Source of the DNA: Sinomicrobium sp.
GTDB taxonomy: Bacteria > Bacteroidota > Bacteroidia > Flavobacteriales > Flavobacteriaceae
Direction of reading: 5' to 3'
Length of the DNA stretch: 64,000 bases
Assembly (NCBI GenBank): GCA_029266035.1
Contig: JAJUFH010000012.1
Location: forward strand, 1 to 64,000
How positions within the stretch are numbered: the stretch's first letter is position 1; each line of letters begins with the position of its first letter. The notes under the pieces are model-generated. The model saw nothing but the letters and a program-made list of their open reading frames with translations. It searched no databases and had not been told where the DNA came from. This document shows, in pieces, positions 261-7,821 of this stretch. The position numbers were made by a program, and so were the translations under genes.

Positions 261-293
261 TTGTTTTTATAATGGATTTTTCATTTAAATTTG
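261..293 (+). promoter_or_regulatory. Promoter of the his leader/operon (Bacteroidota type)
   Basis: TTG at 261-263 and TAAATTTG at 286-293 match the Bacteroidota sigma-A consensus (TTG, then TAnnTTTG), with a 22-bp spacer inside the usual 17-23 range. Transcription would begin near 298-300, about 12 nt before the leader-peptide ATG. This places the whole attenuator inside the transcript. Confidence 0.65.
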
Positions 294-311
294 CGGCATT
301 ACAAAAGAGAA

Positions 312-368
312 ATGAATATATCAGTATTGCATCATCACCATTTTTACACTTGCACTCAGGCGAGGTGA
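312..368 (+). CDS. hisL: His operon leader peptide with four consecutive histidines
   Basis: An 18-codon ORF encodes MNISVLHHHHFYTCTQAR and stops at TGA 366-368. Codons 7-10 (330-341) are CAT CAT CAC CAT. It lies just after a consensus promoter and 37 nt before a terminator hairpin that precedes hisG, which is the classical layout of a ribosome-stalling his attenuator. Its product is probably not functional; translation itself is the sensor. If ribosomes stall at the His codons for lack of charged tRNA-His, bases 353-362 remain free to pair with 409-418 and the terminator cannot form. If they reach the stop codon they cover 353-362 and the terminator folds. The pairing is seen in the sequence; the mechanism is inferred by analogy with known his leaders. 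Confidence 0.8.
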   Translation: MNISVLHHHHFYTCTQAR

Positions 369-418
369 GCATGGTATGTTTGTAATACATCAAAATCCAT
401 ATAGAGCCCGTTTGAGTG
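353..418 (+). promoter_or_regulatory. Antiterminator pairing of the his leader
   Basis: CACTCAGGCG (353-362) can pair with CGTTTGAGTG (409-418) over 10 positions, 8 Watson-Crick and 2 G-U. This takes up the 5' arm of the terminator hairpin at 405-415. In addition TCACC (335-339, within the His codons) can pair with GGTGA (364-368), giving a possible protector stem. The two alternative folds compete in the manner expected for attenuation. Confidence 0.65.
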
Positions 419-437
419 ATTCAGACGGGCTTTTTTT
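405..437 (+). terminator. Attenuator terminator before hisG
   Basis: Bases 405-415 pair with 421-431 in an 11-bp stem (core AGCCCGT/ACGGGCT) with a 5-nt loop, followed by seven T residues at 431-437. It sits between the leader stop codon and the hisG start, so it can only act as a conditional terminator of the his operon. Confidence 0.85.
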
Positions 438-487
438 ATGTAAAAACCGTATCAGCTAATTATCCTTAAGGGGACAAAACCAAAACA

Positions 488-1345
488 ATGAACAAACTAA
501 AAATTGCTATCCAGAAAAGTGGTCGTCTCAATGAAGATTCCCTGCAAATCCTCAAAGATTGCGGAATTTCGGTGAATAACGGCATAGACCAACTCAAGGC
601 AGAAGCCTCCGATTTTCCGATGGAGGTGCTTTTTCTTAGAAATTCAGATATTCCTCAGTACCTTATTGATGGGGTAGTTGATGTAGCTATTATTGGAGAA
701 AATCTCCTTGTCGAGAAAGGTGGTGATATCCAAGTGGTAGAGAAGCTCGGGTTTTCGAAGTGTAGGGTATCGGTAGCTGTACCGAAAACCTTTTCTTATC
801 AATCGGTTAAGGATTTGGACGGACTGAAAATTGCCACTTCTTATCCGAATACGGTAAACAGCTTTCTCGACGAAAAGGGAATCAAGGTCGAATTACATCA
901 AATATCGGGTTCGGTAGAGATAGCACCCAATATCGGTCTGGCCGATGCTATAGTCGATATAGTGTCGAGTGGTAGTACGCTCTTTAAAAACAACCTAAAA
1001 GAGGTAGAAGTTATACTGAAAAGTGAGGCCGTACTAGCGGTATCTCCAGCCATTACAGACGAGAGTAATGTTTTGCTCAACAGATTATTGTTTCGCATTC
1101 AGGCGGTGCTTAAAGCCAGAAATTCGAAATATATACTGATGAATGTCCCAAATGATAAGATAGAAGAAGTAGGTAGCATACTTCCGGTATTGAAAAGTCC
1201 GACCGTTATGCCCCTTGCCGAGGAGGGATGGAGCAGTGTACATTCGGTAATCGACAAGAATAAATTCTGGGAAGTTATCGACGAACTTAAAGCGGTAGGG
1301 GCCGAGGGTATTTTGGTGTGTCCTATTGAAAAAATGGTACTTTAA
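488..1345 (+). CDS. hisG: ATP phosphoribosyltransferase (long form)
   Basis: HisG catalyses the first committed step of histidine synthesis, joining ATP and PRPP to give phosphoribosyl-ATP in the cytosol. The 285-residue length is that of the long form, which carries a C-terminal ACT-like regulatory domain (about residues 215-285) that binds histidine and needs no HisZ. The PRPP-binding loop is visible at about 144-165 (EIAPNIGLADAIVDIVSSGS), and the GVVDVAIIGENLL stretch lies at 62-74. It is the first gene after the attenuator, with 50 nt between the terminator T-run and the ATG. hisD follows after 15 nt. End-product inhibition by histidine is expected from the family but is not shown by the sequence. 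Confidence 0.97.
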   Translation: MNKLKIAIQKSGRLNEDSLQILKDCGISVNNGIDQLKAEASDFPMEVLFLRNSDIPQYLIDGVVDVAIIGENLLVEKGGDIQVVEKLGFSKCRVSVAVPKTFSYQSVKDLDGLKIATSYPNTVNSFLDEKGIKVELHQISGSVEIAPNIGLADAIVDIVSSGSTLFKNNLKEVEVILKSEAVLAVSPAITDESNVLLNRLLFRIQAVLKARNSKYILMNVPNDKIEEVGSILPVLKSPTVMPLAEEGWSSVHSVIDKNKFWEVIDELKAVGAEGILVCPIEKMVL

Positions 1346-1360
1346 CAAACAGTAGTCAAG

Positions 1361-2653
1361 ATGAATAAGATATACAATCCCCAACGCAGTACATGGCCGG
1401 AATTACTGCAAAGGCCAACTCAAACCATAGGCGATATAGAGGCTATGGTGAAGGAGATTTTTAGAGAGGTAAGAGACAAAGGAGACCGGGCGGTTGCAAA
1501 ATACACCTCCTTGTTTGACGGGGTATCTCCAAAGAATGTAGCAGTGACTGCTGTCGAAATAGAAGCGGCCTCTGGTATGGTTTCCGATGAATTGAAGGAA
1601 GCCATAGCACTGGCAAAGAGCAATATAGAAAAATTTCACACCGCTCAAAAAACAGAACGAGTTACGGTTTCTACAGTACAAGGGGTGCAATGTTGGCAGG
1701 AAAAGAAACCTATCGACAAAATCGGACTGTATATTCCCGGAGGTACAGCTCCGCTGTTTTCCACAGTGCTTATGCTTGCCGTTCCGGCCGCTATTGCCGG
1801 TTGTGGAGAGATTGTGTTGTGCTCTCCCCCCGACAAACAGGGAAATATACACCCGGCCATTCTCTACACAGCCAAGTTGTGTGGAGTAGATCGCATCCTC
1901 AAGGTAGGAGGGATACAGGCCATAGCTGGAATGACCTTCGGCACCGAAAGTATTCCGCAGGTGTACAAAATATTTGGTCCGGGTAATCAGTATGTCACCG
2001 TCGCCAAACAACTGGCTACGCGATATGGTGTAGCTATCGATATGCCAGCAGGACCTTCAGAACTTCTCGTTTTGGCCGACGATAGTGCCGATACCGGTTT
2101 TGTGGCATCCGACTTGCTTTCACAAGCCGAACACGGCAAAGACAGTCAGGTGCTTTTAGTGTCTACCTCAAAAGATTTGATAGAGAGGGTAGAAGAGGAG
2201 CTGGAAGAACAAATAAAAGTCCTGCCTCGCAAAGAAATAGCCGCAGCAGCTATAGGGAATTCGAAGTTGATTTATGTAAAGGATAAAGAAACAGCCCTCG
2301 ATTTGGTAAACAGCTACGGTCCGGAACACCTTATTATCTGTAGTGATGAGGAAGAGTTTTATGTGAATGCTGTTGTCAATGCCGGCTCGGTGTTTATAGG
2401 TAATTATACCCCCGAAAGTGCAGGCGACTACGCTTCGGGAACCAACCACACTCTTCCGACCAACGGATATGCCCGTAATTACAGCGGTGTAAATTTAGAC
2501 AGTTTTACCAAAGCCATCACCTTTCAAAAAATTACGGAAAAAGGAATAGGGAATATAGGTAAAGCCATAGAATTGATGGCTGAAGCTGAAGGACTACAGG
2601 CGCATAAAAATGCAGTTAGCCTGAGGTTGAATCGTATAAAAGAAGGGAAGTGA
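1361..2653 (+). CDS. hisD: Histidinol dehydrogenase
   Basis: HisD carries out the last two oxidations, histidinol to histidinal to histidine, with NAD and a zinc ion. The length of 430 residues is normal. The expected residues are visible: SQAEH (Q255 and H258, zinc), E322-H323 in GPEHL (catalytic), D356 in AGDY (zinc) and H415 in QAHKN (zinc). The stop codon overlaps the hisC start by one base (TGATG at 2651-2655), which suggests coupled translation with hisC. Confidence 0.97.
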   Translation: MNKIYNPQRSTWPELLQRPTQTIGDIEAMVKEIFREVRDKGDRAVAKYTSLFDGVSPKNVAVTAVEIEAASGMVSDELKEAIALAKSNIEKFHTAQKTERVTVSTVQGVQCWQEKKPIDKIGLYIPGGTAPLFSTVLMLAVPAAIAGCGEIVLCSPPDKQGNIHPAILYTAKLCGVDRILKVGGIQAIAGMTFGTESIPQVYKIFGPGNQYVTVAKQLATRYGVAIDMPAGPSELLVLADDSADTGFVASDLLSQAEHGKDSQVLLVSTSKDLIERVEEELEEQIKVLPRKEIAAAAIGNSKLIYVKDKETALDLVNSYGPEHLIICSDEEEFYVNAVVNAGSVFIGNYTPESAGDYASGTNHTLPTNGYARNYSGVNLDSFTKAITFQKITEKGIGNIGKAIELMAEAEGLQAHKNAVSLRLNRIKEGK

Positions 2654-3705
2654 TGAAAGATATAAGTTTTGATATCAATGAGCTGATAAGACCTAATGTC
2701 GCCCGATTAAAGCCGTACTCTTCTGCAAGGGACGAGTTTGAAGATTTTGAGGCCGAAATGGTGTTTATCGACGCTAATGAGAATCCCTTTGAAAGTGATG
2801 TAAATCGCTATCCAGACCCGCAGCAGCGAAAACTAAAGGAGGTATTGGCAGCTCAACGAGGAGTGTCGGTAGAAAATATTCTTCTCGGCAACGGTAGCGA
2901 TGAGGTGCTCGACCTTTTGTTTAGGGCCTTCTGCGAACCGGCACAGGACAACGTGATTAGCCTGCCTCCAACCTATGGGATGTACAAGGTGTTGGCAGAG
3001 ATTAACAATGTAGAAAATAAGGAGGTGCTGTTGTCGTCAGATTACCAGCCCAAAGTAAAGGATATACTGGAAGTGGTAGACAAGAACACCAAGCTGTTGT
3101 TTCTGTGCTCTCCCAACAACCCTACGGGAAATTCCTTTTCAGATGAAAGTGTCACAGCATTGTTGGAGGGCTTTGGCGGACTGTTAGTAATCGACGAGGC
3201 CTATATCGATTTTTCATCTCAGGAAAGCTGGTTGCAAAGGCTAAAGGAATATCCCAATTTGGTGGTGACTCAAACTTTGTCTAAGGCCTACGGATTGGCA
3301 GGAATACGATTGGGTATCTGCTTTGCATCGCCCGAAGTCATCGCCGTACTCAACAGTATAAAACCACCCTACAACGTCAACGAGCTGACCCAGAGGCGAG
3401 CGTTGAATCGATTGAGTGATTTAGATGGTGTAAATAAGGAAGTGGCTGATATTAAATTAGAAAAAGAGATTTTATTTAAAGCATTACTTGAAGTTGGTTT
3501 TGTGTCAGAAGTATTCCCTTCCGATGCCAATTTTATACTGGCGAAAGTTGACGATGCCAATCTCAGATACCGTCAGTTACTAGACAAAGGTATAGTGGTG
3601 CGAAATCGGACTACGCAGCCTCTTTGCGAAAATTGCCTGCGCTTTACAGTGGGTACTCCTGAAGAGAATCAGAAGCTGATCAAAGAATTGAGAAGGATGC
3701 TTTGA
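2653..3705 (+). CDS. hisC: Histidinol-phosphate aminotransferase
   Basis: HisC is a PLP-dependent fold-type I aminotransferase that converts imidazole acetol-phosphate to histidinol phosphate using glutamate. The 350-residue protein has SPNNPTG at 153-159, DEAY at 181-184 and the PLP lysine K211 in TLSKAYGLAG. The ATG at 2653 was preferred to the GTG one codon earlier because it forms the usual TGATG overlap with hisD. A gap of 54 nt separates it from hisB. Confidence 0.96.
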   Translation: MKDISFDINELIRPNVARLKPYSSARDEFEDFEAEMVFIDANENPFESDVNRYPDPQQRKLKEVLAAQRGVSVENILLGNGSDEVLDLLFRAFCEPAQDNVISLPPTYGMYKVLAEINNVENKEVLLSSDYQPKVKDILEVVDKNTKLLFLCSPNNPTGNSFSDESVTALLEGFGGLLVIDEAYIDFSSQESWLQRLKEYPNLVVTQTLSKAYGLAGIRLGICFASPEVIAVLNSIKPPYNVNELTQRRALNRLSDLDGVNKEVADIKLEKEILFKALLEVGFVSEVFPSDANFILAKVDDANLRYRQLLDKGIVVRNRTTQPLCENCLRFTVGTPEENQKLIKELRRML

Positions 3706-3759
3706 GTCTGCAGGGGTGCAAATAAACCAGTTCTTTAATTAATTTTAAAATGTGTTTTT

Positions 3760-4893
3760 GTGAAAAAAGTATTGTTTATAGATCGTGATGGTACGTTGAT
3801 CAAAGAGCCGGAAGACGAACAGATTGACGCCTTTGAAAAACTGGAATTCTACCCCGGGATGTTTACCTGGATGGGACGCATTGCTCGCGAATTGGATTAC
3901 GAATTGGTGATGGTGACCAATCAGGACGGATTGGGAACAGATGCTTTTCCGGAAGATACCTTCTGGCCGGTACATAATCTGATTCTGAAAAGTTTGGAAA
4001 ATGAAGGGATTGTCTTTGACCAAATTTTTATAGACCACAGTTTTCCCGAAGAGAACTCGCCTAACAGAAAGCCCAAAACCGGCTTACTCAGCGGGTATTT
4101 TTCAGAGGAATACGACTTGGAGAATTCGTTGGTTATTGGTGATAGGCTCACCGATGTGGAACTGGCCAAAAACCTCGGGGCCAAGGCCGTGTTTATCAAC
4201 AATGACACCCAACTCGGAACAGGGGAAGTTACGACCGAAACTGAAGAGTTACAGGCTTGTATCGCTTTGGAAACCAGCAATTGGAAAGAGATATACGAAT
4301 TTTTAAAATTACAGAGACGTACGGCTTCGATTGCGAGAAAAACCAATGAGACCGATATAAGTATAGATATCAATCTGGATGGTAAGGGCAAGAGCGATAT
4401 CAGTACGGGTATTGCCTTTTTCGATCATATGCTCGATCAACTGGCAAGACACGGGCAGATGGATATCGTTATCCGTGTTGATGGCGATCTGGAAGTAGAT
4501 GAACACCACACTATCGAAGACACGGCTATTGCTCTTGGTGAGGTATTCCGAAAGGCATTGGGAGATAAATTGGGAATAGAACGTTACGGATTCTGTCTGC
4601 CAATGGACGATTGTCTCGCACAGGTAGCTATCGATTTCGGAGGGAGAAACTGGCTGGTGTGGGAAACGGAGTTTAAACGCGAAATGATAGGTAAGATGCC
4701 GACCGAGATGTTTTATCACTTCTTTAAGTCTTTTACCGATGGAGCGGGAGCCAATCTGAATATCAAGGCTGAGGGACAGAATGAACACCACAAGATTGAG
4801 GCCATTTTTAAAGCTTTTGCCAAGGCGATCAAGATGGCAGTGAAAAGAGATGTAGAAAAAATGGTACTCCCTACCACCAAGGGAATGATCTGA
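3760..4893 (+). CDS. hisB: Bifunctional histidinol-phosphatase / imidazoleglycerol-phosphate dehydratase
   Basis: This is a two-domain HisB of 377 residues. Residues 1 to about 165 are a HAD phosphatase (DRDGT at 8-12 with nucleophile D8 and D10; GDRLTD at 127-132). Residues about 187-377 are the dehydratase with the metal-binding HH at 249-250 in EHHTIEDTA and a second HH in NEHHKIEA. The N domain removes phosphate from histidinol phosphate and the C domain dehydrates imidazole glycerol phosphate. The loop that in the enterobacterial enzyme holds a Cys-His-Cys-Cys zinc site reads [14 protein letters not shown] here (92-105) and has no cysteine. The start is GTG 3760; the ATG at 3750 is out of frame. 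Confidence 0.95.
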
Positions 4894-4902
4894 TCCGGTA
4901 CT

Positions 4903-5493
4903 ATGAAAAACATCGTTATCATTGATTACGGAGCGGGAAACATACAGAGTGTGAAATTTGCCGTAGAGCGATTGGGCCATCAGGCTTTGCTATCAGATGA
5001 TGCACAAATCATAAAAAGTGCCGATAAGGTTATTTTTCCCGGTGTGGGAGCTGCGGGAAGTGCTATGAGTAAGCTCAGAGCTACCGGACTCGACAAATTG
5101 ATCCCGGAATTGAAGCAACCGGTATTAGGTATATGTCTCGGTATGCAGCTTATGTGTAGGTATTCTGAGGAGGGAAATACTCAGGGATTGGGTATATTCG
5201 ATACCGATGTACTCCGGTTTCCCGATATCGTAAAAGTGCCGCAAATAGGGTGGAATCGGATTTCTGATCTGAAATCGGATCTCTTTGACGGAATTAAAGA
5301 AGGAGAGTTTATGTACCTCGTACACAGCTATTATGTGCCCGATTGTTCGGAAGCCATTGCCCATACCTCTTATGGAACTGGATATGCTTCGGCTCTGAAA
5401 AAAGACAATTTTTATGGAGTTCAGTTCCACCCTGAAAAAAGCAGTACAGCCGGAGCAAGCGTTTTAAACAATTTTTTGGAAAGAGTTTCTTAA
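4903..5493 (+). CDS. hisH: Imidazole glycerol phosphate synthase, glutaminase subunit
   Basis: HisH is a class-I glutamine amidotransferase that supplies ammonia to HisF for the synthesis of imidazole glycerol phosphate and AICAR. The 196-residue protein shows the catalytic triad C78 (GICLGMQ), H176 and E178 (QFHPEKS), and the oxyanion-region PGVGA at 46-50. It starts 9 nt after hisB and ends 17 nt before hisA. Confidence 0.97.
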   Translation: MKNIVIIDYGAGNIQSVKFAVERLGHQALLSDDAQIIKSADKVIFPGVGAAGSAMSKLRATGLDKLIPELKQPVLGICLGMQLMCRYSEEGNTQGLGIFDTDVLRFPDIVKVPQIGWNRISDLKSDLFDGIKEGEFMYLVHSYYVPDCSEAIAHTSYGTGYASALKKDNFYGVQFHPEKSSTAGASVLNNFLERVS

Positions 5494-5510
5494 AGTTATA
5501 GTTATATCAC

Positions 5511-6245
5511 ATGAGAATAATACCAGCCATAGATATTATAGAAGGCAAATGTGTGCGGCTTTCAAAAGGCGATTACAGCACCAGTAAAGTGTATAATGAG
5601 AACCCTTTGGAGGTGGCCAAAGCCTTTGAGGCTCACGGCATAGAATACTTGCATCTGGTAGATCTGGACGGAGCCAAAAGCAGTCATATTGTAAATCACG
5701 AGATACTGGAGCAAATAGCTTCGAATACTGGGCTTAAGATAGATTTCGGAGGAGGACTCAAATCGGACGAAGATCTTAAAATAGCTTTTGAAAGCGGTGC
5801 CACACAGGTTACCGGTGGGAGCATAGCCGTAAAAGACAGGGAGACCTTTTTGGGGTGGATTGAGCGTTATGGAGCTGAAAGAATTATACTCGGTGCCGAC
5901 GTACAACCCGGTACGGATGGAAATAAAATCGCCATCAGCGGCTGGCTCGAAAGTTCAGGAATAGACCTGTTGCCGTTTGTCGATGGTTATAACAAAGAGG
6001 GAATAGAATATGTGATATGTACCGATATCAGTAAAGACGGTATGTTAAAAGGACCTGCCTTTGATTTGTACACTGAAATATTAGCACATAACAACAACAT
6101 AAAACTCATCGCTTCCGGTGGAATATCGGCCTTTGATGAACTGCCCAAACTCGCAGACTTGGGATGTGAGGGGACTATTATCGGCAAAGCTATATACGAA
6201 GGCAAGATAAGTTTGAAAGAATTGGAAAATTACATAGTAGCCTGA
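5511..6245 (+). CDS. hisA: Phosphoribosylformimino-AICAR ribotide isomerase
   Basis: HisA is a TIM-barrel isomerase that opens the ribose ring of ProFAR to give PRFAR. The length is 244 residues. The catalytic aspartates of the family are present, D8 in PAIDII and D130 in GADVQ, with phosphate-binding glycine stretches DFGGGL (78-83) and ASGGIS. The next gene, hisF, is its paralogue. Confidence 0.96.
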
Positions 6246-6281
6246 TGTAAAGGACAACAATCGTATTAAAGCTGAAAATAT

Positions 6282-7037
6282 ATGCTGACCAAAAGAATTA
6301 TACCCTGTTTGGATATCAAGAACGGGAGAACGGTAAAAGGAGTTAATTTTCTCAATCTCAGAGATGCAGGCGACCCTGTAGAGCTCGCCGCTATTTATGC
6401 GGCAGAGGGAGCAGACGAATTGGTTTTTCTCGATATTTCAGCTACTGAGGAAAAGCGAAAAACCCTATCTGATCTGGTGAGGAAGGTGGCAGAAAAAGTG
6501 GATATACCCTTTACGGTAGGAGGGGGAATTGCCTCTGTAGAGGATGTGGAAATACTATTGCAAAACGGTGCCGACAAGGTTTCGATAAATTCATCAGCGG
6601 TAAAACGCCCGGAACTGATCGACGAGCTTTCTAAGCGTTTCGGGAGTCAGTGTGTAGTTGTAGCCGTAGATGCGCGACAGCTAGAGGGGCAATGGCTGGT
6701 TCACCTCGTAGGAGGTAAAGAACCCACAGAAATCCCTTTATACGAATGGGTAAAGGAAGCAGAACAACGCGGTGCCGGTGAGATACTCTTTACTTCTATG
6801 GATCACGACGGGACAAAGAACGGTTTTGCCAATGAGGCTCTCGCTCGTATCTCGGAATTGGTCAATATCCCCGTAATCGCTTCGGGAGGTGCCGGAGAAA
6901 TGCAGCATTTTGCCGATGCCTTCCTAAAAGGTAAAGCCGACGCAGCCCTCGCAGCCAGCGTGTTTCACTTTAAGGAGATAAGGCTTGTTGAATTGAAACA
7001 TTTTTTAAAGACACAGGATATTGCAGTGCGATTGTAA
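6282..7037 (+). CDS. hisF: Imidazole glycerol phosphate synthase, cyclase subunit
   Basis: HisF is the TIM-barrel partner of HisH. It uses the ammonia to split PRFAR into imidazole glycerol phosphate and AICAR. The 251-residue protein carries D11 (CLDIKNGR) and D130 (VVAVDAR), the known catalytic pair, and the phosphate sites TVGGGI (78-83) and ASGGAGE. The gap to hisIE is unusually long for this operon (187 nt) and contains a hairpin repeat. Confidence 0.97.
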
Positions 7038-7121
7038 AGCGAAGGTTTTCAGTGCCATCCTACGTTTGTAGGAACAGAACAAATGTAGAAATAAAGCCTT
7101 GTGCTTTAACAGCTCCTTTGA

Positions 7122-7183
7122 TTCTGGAGAGAGATTGACAGTAGGGCATGCTCGCCGGACAGGCGGGTTCACTGTCTCCGGAA
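7122..7183. repeat. Hairpin-forming intergenic repeat between hisF and hisIE
   Basis: TTCTGGAGA (7122-7130) faces TCTCCGGAA (7175-7183), GACAGT (7137-7142) faces ACTGTC (7171-7176), and CGCC/GGCG forms an inner stem around the loop GGACA. The GC-rich core CGCCGGACAGGCGGG differs from the surrounding sequence. It looks like a short dispersed palindromic element that has inserted inside the his operon. It has no T-run on the plus strand, so it is not an obvious terminator, but it could adjust mRNA stability. Only one copy is seen in this window. Confidence 0.5.
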
Positions 7184-7224
7184 TGACAAATTGCAAAATG
7201 TAATTGTAAAAAAATAAGATTATT

Positions 7225-7821
7225 ATGAATATAGATTTTGAAAAAAATGACGGTCTTGTTCCGGCTGTAGTACAGGATGCCGAAACCAGGGCTGTACTGA
7301 TGCTGGGGTATATGAATGAGGCTGCCTATAAAAAGACTGTGGAAAGTGGCTTGGTGACCTTCTTTAGTCGCAGTAAACAGCGTTTGTGGACCAAGGGGGA
7401 GGAGAGTGGTAATACACTGTCCCTTGTCGATATTAAAGTAGATTGCGATAGAGATACTTTATTGGTCAAGGCACGTCCGAAAGGTCCCACTTGTCACACA
7501 GGTACCGATACTTGTTGGAGCGAAGAAAACCGTCCGCATTACGGCTTTTTGTCAGATTTGGAAGCGGTGATAGCGCAGAGAAAAGAAGAGGGAGGAAAGG
7601 AGAGTTATGTAGCTTCTCTTTTTGACAAAGGAATCAACAAGATTGCTCAGAAAGTAGGAGAAGAGGCGGTTGAAGTGGTTATAGAAGCCAAAGATGAGGA
7701 TGAAAATCTGTTTCTCAACGAGAGTGCCGACCTGCTTTTTCACTATCTCATACTGTTGCAAGCAAAGGGGTACACATTGAGTGATGTAGTAAAAATTCTC
7801 GAAGGTAGGCATAGGAAATAA
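7225..7821 (+). CDS. hisIE: Bifunctional phosphoribosyl-AMP cyclohydrolase / phosphoribosyl-ATP pyrophosphatase
   Basis: The 198-residue fusion performs steps two and three of histidine synthesis. Residues 1 to about 108 are the HisI cyclohydrolase with the metal/zinc residues C74, D75, D77, C90 and C97 (CDRDTLL, GPTCHTGTDTC). Residues about 110-198 are the HisE pyrophosphohydrolase with GEEAVEVVIEA (146-156) and ESADLL. It is the last his gene; no terminator lies between it and corA 26 nt downstream. Confidence 0.96.
   Translation: MNIDFEKNDGLVPAVVQDAETRAVLMLGYMNEAAYKKTVESGLVTFFSRSKQRLWTKGEESGNTLSLVDIKVDCDRDTLLVKARPKGPTCHTGTDTCWSEENRPHYGFLSDLEAVIAQRKEEGGKESYVASLFDKGINKIAQKVGEEAVEVVIEAKDEDENLFLNESADLLFHYLILLQAKGYTLSDVVKILEGRHRK

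Follow-up and report, generated by a model that had tools for sequence, protein, structure and literature searches.

The leader of hisG in the window (the whole 64,000-nucleotide stretch of Sinomicrobium sp. DNA analysed here) is, with a probability of about 0.92, a ribosome-mediated transcription attenuator of the his operon. It carries a short open reading frame (ORF) with a run of His codons, an intrinsic terminator and an antiterminator that excludes the terminator, and in many relatives within the Flavobacteriales the 5′ arm and loop of the terminator have a further complementary partner close to the start of hisG. The parts of the locus in the window are as follows, each with the basis of its assignment.

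286–293, + strand: −7 box of a Bacteroidota-type promoter, TAAATTTG; the sole TAnnTTTG in 1–320
312–368, + strand: leader peptide ORF of 18 codons, MNISVLHHHHFYTCTQAR and stop (ATG at 312, TGA at 366–368); kept across the family
330–341, + strand: four consecutive His codons, CAT CAT CAC CAT; read in the sequence
324–388, + strand: possible anti-antiterminator (pause-type) hairpin with segment 2 inside it; minimum-energy fold
353–362, + strand: segment 2, the antiterminator 5′ strand, within the leader ORF, CACUCAGGCG; complementarity and covariation
403–415, + strand: terminator 5′ arm, containing most of segment 3; fold, terminator scan and covariation
409–418, + strand: segment 3, the antiterminator 3′ strand, made of terminator 5′ arm and the start of the loop, CGUUUGAGUG; complementarity and covariation
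421–433, + strand: segment 4, the terminator 3′ arm; fold and covariation
431–437, + strand: terminator U run, seven T; read in the sequence
488–1345, + strand: hisG, first gene of the operon; TIGR00070, E 3.8e-57
1361–7821, + strand: hisD, hisC, hisB (bifunctional), hisH, hisA, hisF and hisIE; NCBIfam matches and ORFs

The his operon downstream of the leader is complete (hisGDCBHAFIE), and its HisG shares 93% identity with the HisG of Sinomicrobium sp. N-1-3-6 (among the best 80 of 546 relatives). The first-pass annotation of this DNA had placed a consensus promoter ahead of the leader; the sigma-70 promoter scan gave no entry for the + strand from 121 to 665, and the site is better read as the Bacteroidota-type −7 box TAAATTTG at 286–293. 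The motif TAnnTTTG, which we take to be the Bacteroidota −7 promoter consensus, was found no more than 50 nt upstream of the leader at 33 of 87 loci, the window among them, against 3.9 expected by shuffling. Further upstream of the his promoter, at 184–203 on the + strand, lies a terminator-like hairpin with a CTTTTT tail. The other parts described from the sequence at first pass are present: the 18-codon leader at 312–368 with its four His codons in a row at 330–341, the terminator with seven T at 403–437 (given as 11 bp, and 13 pairs long in the minimum-energy fold), and the alternative pairing of 353–362 with 409–418, in which segments 2 and 3 are complementary throughout their ten positions, with two G-U pairs, and which consumes the terminator 5′ arm. 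An intrinsic terminator lies between the leader ORF and hisG, and the antiterminator excludes it by taking its 5′ arm. The defining features of a leader-peptide attenuator that can be read in a sequence are thus all found here except for the upstream hairpin, which is predicted in the window and is weaker in relatives.

Folding of positions 300–436 gave a minimum-energy structure made of the terminator hairpin (403–415 with 421–433, 13 pairs) and the upstream hairpin at 324–388, which encloses segment 2. At −46.5 kcal/mol this fold lay far below the shuffled mean of −25.0 (z −6.4), and none of 200 shuffles was as low. Terminator-like sites as such are not rare in the first 9500 positions of the window (11, with 8.0 expected), and the his terminator has the longest stem and the most G-C pairs among them. 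To mimic RNA held by a ribosome, everything upstream of 343 or 353 was omitted and the transcript was ended at 421, at which point the terminator 3′ arm is still largely untranscribed; the antiterminator then folded, extended to 13 pairs, with a total energy of about −24 kcal/mol. Once the transcript reached 440, the terminator fold won over it. At equilibrium the complete leader had an energy of −47.6 kcal/mol with the terminator versus −27.4 kcal/mol with the antiterminator forced; since equilibrium folding prefers the terminator in the complete leader, the switch would rest on kinetics.

Leader-peptide attenuation requires a ribosome close behind RNA polymerase, and the size of the ribosome footprint was used for the geometry of masking. 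From the arrangement of these parts in the sequence we propose that transcription begins soon after 293 and that the leader is translated immediately. With ample charged tRNA-His, the ribosome would reach the stop codon at 366–368 and mask segment 2; segment 3 would then pair with segment 4, and RNA polymerase would terminate in the U run at 431–437, giving an RNA of roughly 140 nt. When histidine is scarce, the ribosome would stall at 330–341 and leave segment 2 (353–362) unmasked, so that free segment 2 could take segment 3 on its emergence; the terminator would then form too late, and the operon would be transcribed. If the leader were not translated at all, the hairpin at 324–388 would be expected to mask segment 2, with termination by default.

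Relatives were scored for a leader by a single rule, at least three His within five residues of a short ORF located within 260 nt upstream of hisG. The family set comprised 90 loci from the 166 hisG-bearing genomes among 199 Flavobacteriaceae genomes, with one locus per genus (two for the window's own genus), for the most part those with the best E values, some entries being passed over. The order, class and phylum sets were of 20 loci each, chosen for diversity; one locus fetched with the phylum set (L230) was counted with the class, and four phylum loci (L220 and L225–L227) were dropped because their orientation could not be resolved. By this rule 87 of the 90 Flavobacteriaceae loci have a leader, against 0.28 expected from shuffles, and none of the 90 has one on the reverse strand. 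The three loci that fail the rule (L088, L091 and L131) each have a leader with two His codons when read by eye. Outside the family, a leader was found at 19 of 20 loci from other Flavobacteriales families, 20 of 21 other loci of the same class and 10 of 15 other loci of the same phylum; the shuffle expectations, computed with L230 counted as phylum, were 0.14, 0.24 and 0.12, respectively, and thus below 0.3 in every set. In total, 136 of the 146 Bacteroidota loci sampled have a leader by rule, those that do not including five phylum loci and the class locus L204. The only one of the 20 order loci without a His leader by rule, L175, comes from a genome of about 600 kb, a size that suggests a reduced symbiont. 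A His ORF was also seen on the reverse strand at two of the 20 order loci. A second set, the best 80 of 546 relatives, had a leader in 79, with at least four consecutive His codons in 77 of these; the exception, L047, has just 40 nt of upstream sequence.

Across 87 family leaders examined, each holds two to five His residues, encoded in total by 329 CAT and 20 CAC codons. The peptides mostly end in Q-A and one or two further residues before the stop, and the codons for these residues are the antiterminator strand itself. Among the 87 leaders examined, 11 lack a match to the segment 2 core TCA(A/G)(G/A)CG; of the 76 that have one, 73 place the core 14 nt after the last His codon and 71 have the end of the stop codon 6 nt past segment 2. 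The geometry argued from the window at first pass, in which a stalled ribosome leaves the antiterminator strand free and a ribosome at the stop masks it, is therefore kept with little variation among the leaders that have the core.

Covariation was measured on an alignment of 89 Flavobacteriaceae loci, window included, which was made without the use of structure (alignment A1). This alignment omits L088, L091 and L117, which were missed by the run-based leader finder, and includes L083, for which the hisG start is doubtful. For the terminator, 98.4% of cells were paired and 32 cells were changed on both sides, against 4.1 in shuffles; for the antiterminator the corresponding values were 93.1% and 43, against 23.3. 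Sliding the partner by one column reduced pairing to 57% for the terminator and to 36–49% for the antiterminator. At column 144 of segment 3, T is replaced by C in 11 rows, and all 11 have G opposite it both in segment 2 and in segment 4. Changes were also counted on a HisG tree that used approximately 95 residues from the N-terminus and left out one row because of its length. By this rough count the antiterminator had 15 both-side changes on single branches (2 and 1 for its slid controls), and the terminator had 18, a count that stands without a slid control. Individually, the antiterminator was better than shuffles (p ≤ 0.05) at 74 of 87 family, 11 of 19 order, 10 of 15 class and 3 of 7 phylum loci (L230 as class), and one of its pairs, 78–149, is unpaired in 36 of 88 rows. 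The upstream hairpin fared less well on the same alignment, its outer helix being 60.6% paired with fewer pair types than in shuffles and a higher covariation score after a slide of −1, and its inner helix of four pairs being 86.3% paired. The comparison with relatives proposed in the first-pass annotation thus yielded both of the features it named, namely conserved His codons (in the leaders of 87 of 90 family loci) and stems that covary, the terminator as well as the antiterminator.

These results bear directly on two other ways of reading the element. A constitutive terminator preceded by a chance His-rich ORF, which would merely lower basal his expression and sense nothing, would account for a terminator that is strong on its own both in the fold and in the scan; it would leave unexplained a leader at 87 of 90 family loci where 0.28 were expected, the nearly fixed 14 nt between His codons and segment 2, and an antiterminator that covaries with the terminator, and we regard it as very improbable. 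Scarcely more probable is that the leader RNA is sensed otherwise than by a ribosome on the His codons, through a T-box, a riboswitch or an RNA-binding protein. Other his operons do use T-boxes or the HisR repressor, according to PMC9413887. In the window, no Rfam family matched at its gathering score, which speaks against both a T-box riboswitch and membership of the His_leader family RF00514, and the features conserved among relatives are a short ORF bearing a His run and the spacing between that run and segment 2. With the Rfam threshold relaxed to E values up to 5, positions 240–500 gave 12 matches, none of them a T-box; all were below their gathering scores and were taken as chance, the best by bits being trpB RF04312 (27.5 versus 59 needed). 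Ribosome-mediated attenuation is therefore retained as the reading of the element.

In many relatives the terminator 5′ arm and loop have a third partner, a segment between terminator and hisG that is complementary to them, often over 11–13 nt (segment 5; for example GTTTGAGTAAATC with GATTTACTCAAAC at L109). Compared with shuffles, segment 5 was significant at p ≤ 0.01 at 51 of 90 Flavobacteriaceae loci and at 14 of 20 order loci from other families, as well as at 75 of the 76 loci of L005–L081, nearly all of which are Flavobacterium. The laboratory strain of Flavobacterium johnsoniae (L036) has both a His leader and a segment 5. Beyond the order, among loci with a terminator, the same threshold was reached at a single class locus out of 17 and at none of the 9 phylum loci, and segment 5 is absent from the window and from the three Sinomicrobium loci tested. 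Its end lies a median of 16 nt upstream of the hisG ATG in the significant family loci (IQR 15–17, n = 51), and its distance from the terminator is more variable (IQR 16–22). On alignment A1 the helix of segments 3 and 5 (the 3:5 helix) was 84.8% paired, compared to 46–47% when slid by one column, and had 85 both-side cells against 40.0 in shuffles; 75 of these 85 cells are in columns 149, 150, 155 and 156, outside the terminator stem, with column 149 also being part of the antiterminator. On the rough HisG tree, 32 both-side changes were counted, against 3 to 12 in slid controls, and in the rows with C at column 144 segment 5 has G in 9 of the 10 that have a letter there. Other measures on A1 were closer to chance: there were 6 pairs changed on both sides, where shuffles gave 5.3 (and were as high in 169 of 500), further pair types numbered 24 against 21.0 (24 of 500 as high), and the outer four pairs were only 70.7% paired. 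The pairing is kept with quite different letters at the order loci L172, L176 and L189. To our knowledge, textbook accounts of attenuators do not include a third, covarying partner for the terminator arm, and we did not find this pairing in the literature, in searches that were not worded for it.

Two further structures were seen in the same part of the leader. Of four Sinomicrobium sequences that were folded, two, the window (at 463–474) and L002, formed a small hairpin immediately before the hisG start (−2.5 and −4.9 kcal/mol); its closeness to the position of segment 5 in relatives may be chance. At L111 and L169 the gap between terminator and hisG holds, at the place of segment 5, a similar palindromic stretch with CCCG and GGGA/CGGG arms followed by CTTTTTATCCCG and ACGGATAAC, which looks like a small repeated element present in two genera.

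Since segment 5 is transcribed only past the termination point, it can have no part in the termination decision, and its near-fixed distance from the hisG start suggests a role in translation. One tentative proposal is that segment 5 forms a translational layer, in which it pairs with and hides the hisG start and in which pairing of segment 3 with segment 5 would free that start. In keeping with this, segment 5 ends at a steadier distance from the hisG ATG than from the terminator and is present (p ≤ 0.02) at 51 of 55 loci where hisG starts with ATGAGT, versus 16 of 55 with other starts; pairing between the stretch before hisG and the start reached p ≤ 0.02 at 21 of 55 and 2 of 55 loci in the same two classes, although start class is confounded with ancestry. 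With the terminator hairpin taken out of the fold, the start was unpaired at 0.426, versus 0.538 with segment 5 shuffled; it was less accessible than with shuffled segment 5 at 55 of 67 loci (Wilcoxon p 1e-8), and the value rose to 0.572 at the 67 loci once segment 5 was occupied. The letters of the terminator loop and of the hisG start also often match (TAC/TAC, TAA/TAA and TAT/TAT), but the agreement is mostly within one genus. Against a pairing of segment 5 with the start, no covariation was found (69.9% paired versus 70.1% in shuffles), double changes on the rough tree numbered 9 versus 7 and 3 in slid controls, and the 16 segment 5 loci with another start had little or no occlusion (0.548 versus 0.565). 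Covariation thus gives no backing to it as a conserved pairing; accessibility supports it in the ATGAGT group, and we put it forward as a hypothesis only. Individual loci give mixed hints on which pairing of segment 5 is selected, in that at L098 and L160 segment 5 fits the hisG start better than it fits a changed terminator loop, and at L113 it fits the loop better.

An equally tentative proposal is that the 3:5 helix acts in the readthrough mRNA and has nothing to do with regulation by histidine, either setting stability or processing or keeping the U run off the A-rich landing site of the ribosome. Its persistence with quite different letters in other families and its excess of both-side cells over shuffles would be expected of such a helix, and forcing the 3:5 helix left positions −15 to +15 of hisG more open than forcing the terminator helix of segments 3 and 4 (0.75 versus 0.64). 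Both proposals have to contend with the terminator, whose refolding is better than the 3:5 helix by about 4.7 kcal/mol on average, the 3:5 helix being lower at only 3 of 137 loci. For the Flavobacteriales as a whole we offer, speculatively, a scheme in which the terminator 5′ arm and loop are common to three exclusive helices, with segments 2, 4 and 5; by resembling the hisG start, the loop would act as its competitor for the anti-start segment, so that one leader might control both termination and hisG translation. The translational arm of this arrangement would be missing from the window's genus, through loss or because it never arose there.

The occurrence of attenuator anatomy upstream of hisG at 136 of 146 loci makes coupling of transcription and translation in Bacteroidota, which largely lack Shine-Dalgarno-led initiation, testable with a natural reporter, and the 3:5 helix beside the hisG start offers a defined target for mutation. 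An Ile/Val-rich short ORF, LERLFCFKVVIVIQYSIIIVIVVVDLFSG, was also seen upstream of ilvD in the genome of the window (L282); it ends about 254 nt before ilvD and is followed by a weak terminator-like site. Similar Ile/Val-rich ORFs occur upstream of ilvD in other genera (L276, L285, L286 and L292), and the ilvD upstream ORF is possibly part of a branched-chain attenuator. Among 30 ilvD loci, 26 of them with a terminator-like site, there was no convincing case of a segment 5 near the start, the two loci at p ≤ 0.02 having their sites 190 and 40 nt from it.

Existing models do not recover these leaders. The His_leader model RF00514, run with Infernal's stricter filters, had no match over its cut-off in any of 198 Bacteroidota genomes (sub-threshold matches in 6); in controls it matched in E. 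coli and Corynebacterium glutamicum, one of the two over the cut-off. Model R1, a covariance model trained on 80 family loci with the window among them (alignment A2), hit the genome of the window once, at this leader (E 1.3e-17, with the window sequence in the training set), and matched in 74 of 146 Flavobacteriales genomes, where the strongest matches lie directly upstream of hisG and weak ones are not claimed. That the Rfam model misses these leaders points to a gap in RNA annotation. Vitreschak 2004 or Lopatovskaya 2010 may list Bacteroidetes his attenuators already. Rfam amino-acid attenuator motifs may originate in gamma-proteobacteria, according to PMC3766115; the Bacteroidota His leaders suggest that this picture depends on the models used.

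The element shares with the proteobacterial his leader (RF00514), as generally described in PMC9413887, a His-codon leader peptide, a terminator, an exclusive antiterminator and hisG as first gene; it appears to differ in the placing of segment 2, which here falls within the ORF and is almost a repeat of the terminator 3′ arm. The his attenuators of Firmicutes, as covered there, likewise have three to five consecutive His codons, a terminator and an antiterminator in a phylum where RF00514 is not found, but belong to another phylum and were counted in 17 genomes, compared with 136 of 146 Bacteroidota loci by rule here; the text of PMC9413887 that was searched does not mention Bacteroidetes. 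From Bacteroidetes themselves, reports describe leader-like small ORFs in B. thetaiotaomicron (PMC7366714) and the Bacteroid-trp RNA RF01692, a probable cis-regulatory RNA whose name suggests trp genes (PMC2864571) and which has no match in the window. The closest precedent is a structured 5′ element without an Rfam match reported in 2021 upstream of hisG in F. psychrophilum and conserved in other Flavobacteriaceae genera, together with clues of leader-peptide attenuation in that species (PMC9723704). The view taken at first pass, that such attenuators have hardly been described in Bacteroidota, is thus only partly right: the attenuation clues and the element were on record, but the section describing the element gives no anatomy, covariation, phylum-wide count or third partner (PMC9723704). 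The F. psychrophilum element is very probably the same as ours, although that species lies outside the loci sampled. The attenuator in the window had therefore already been noticed in outline in relatives, and it is the third partner, present across much of the order, that sets this family of attenuators apart and is the part worth following.
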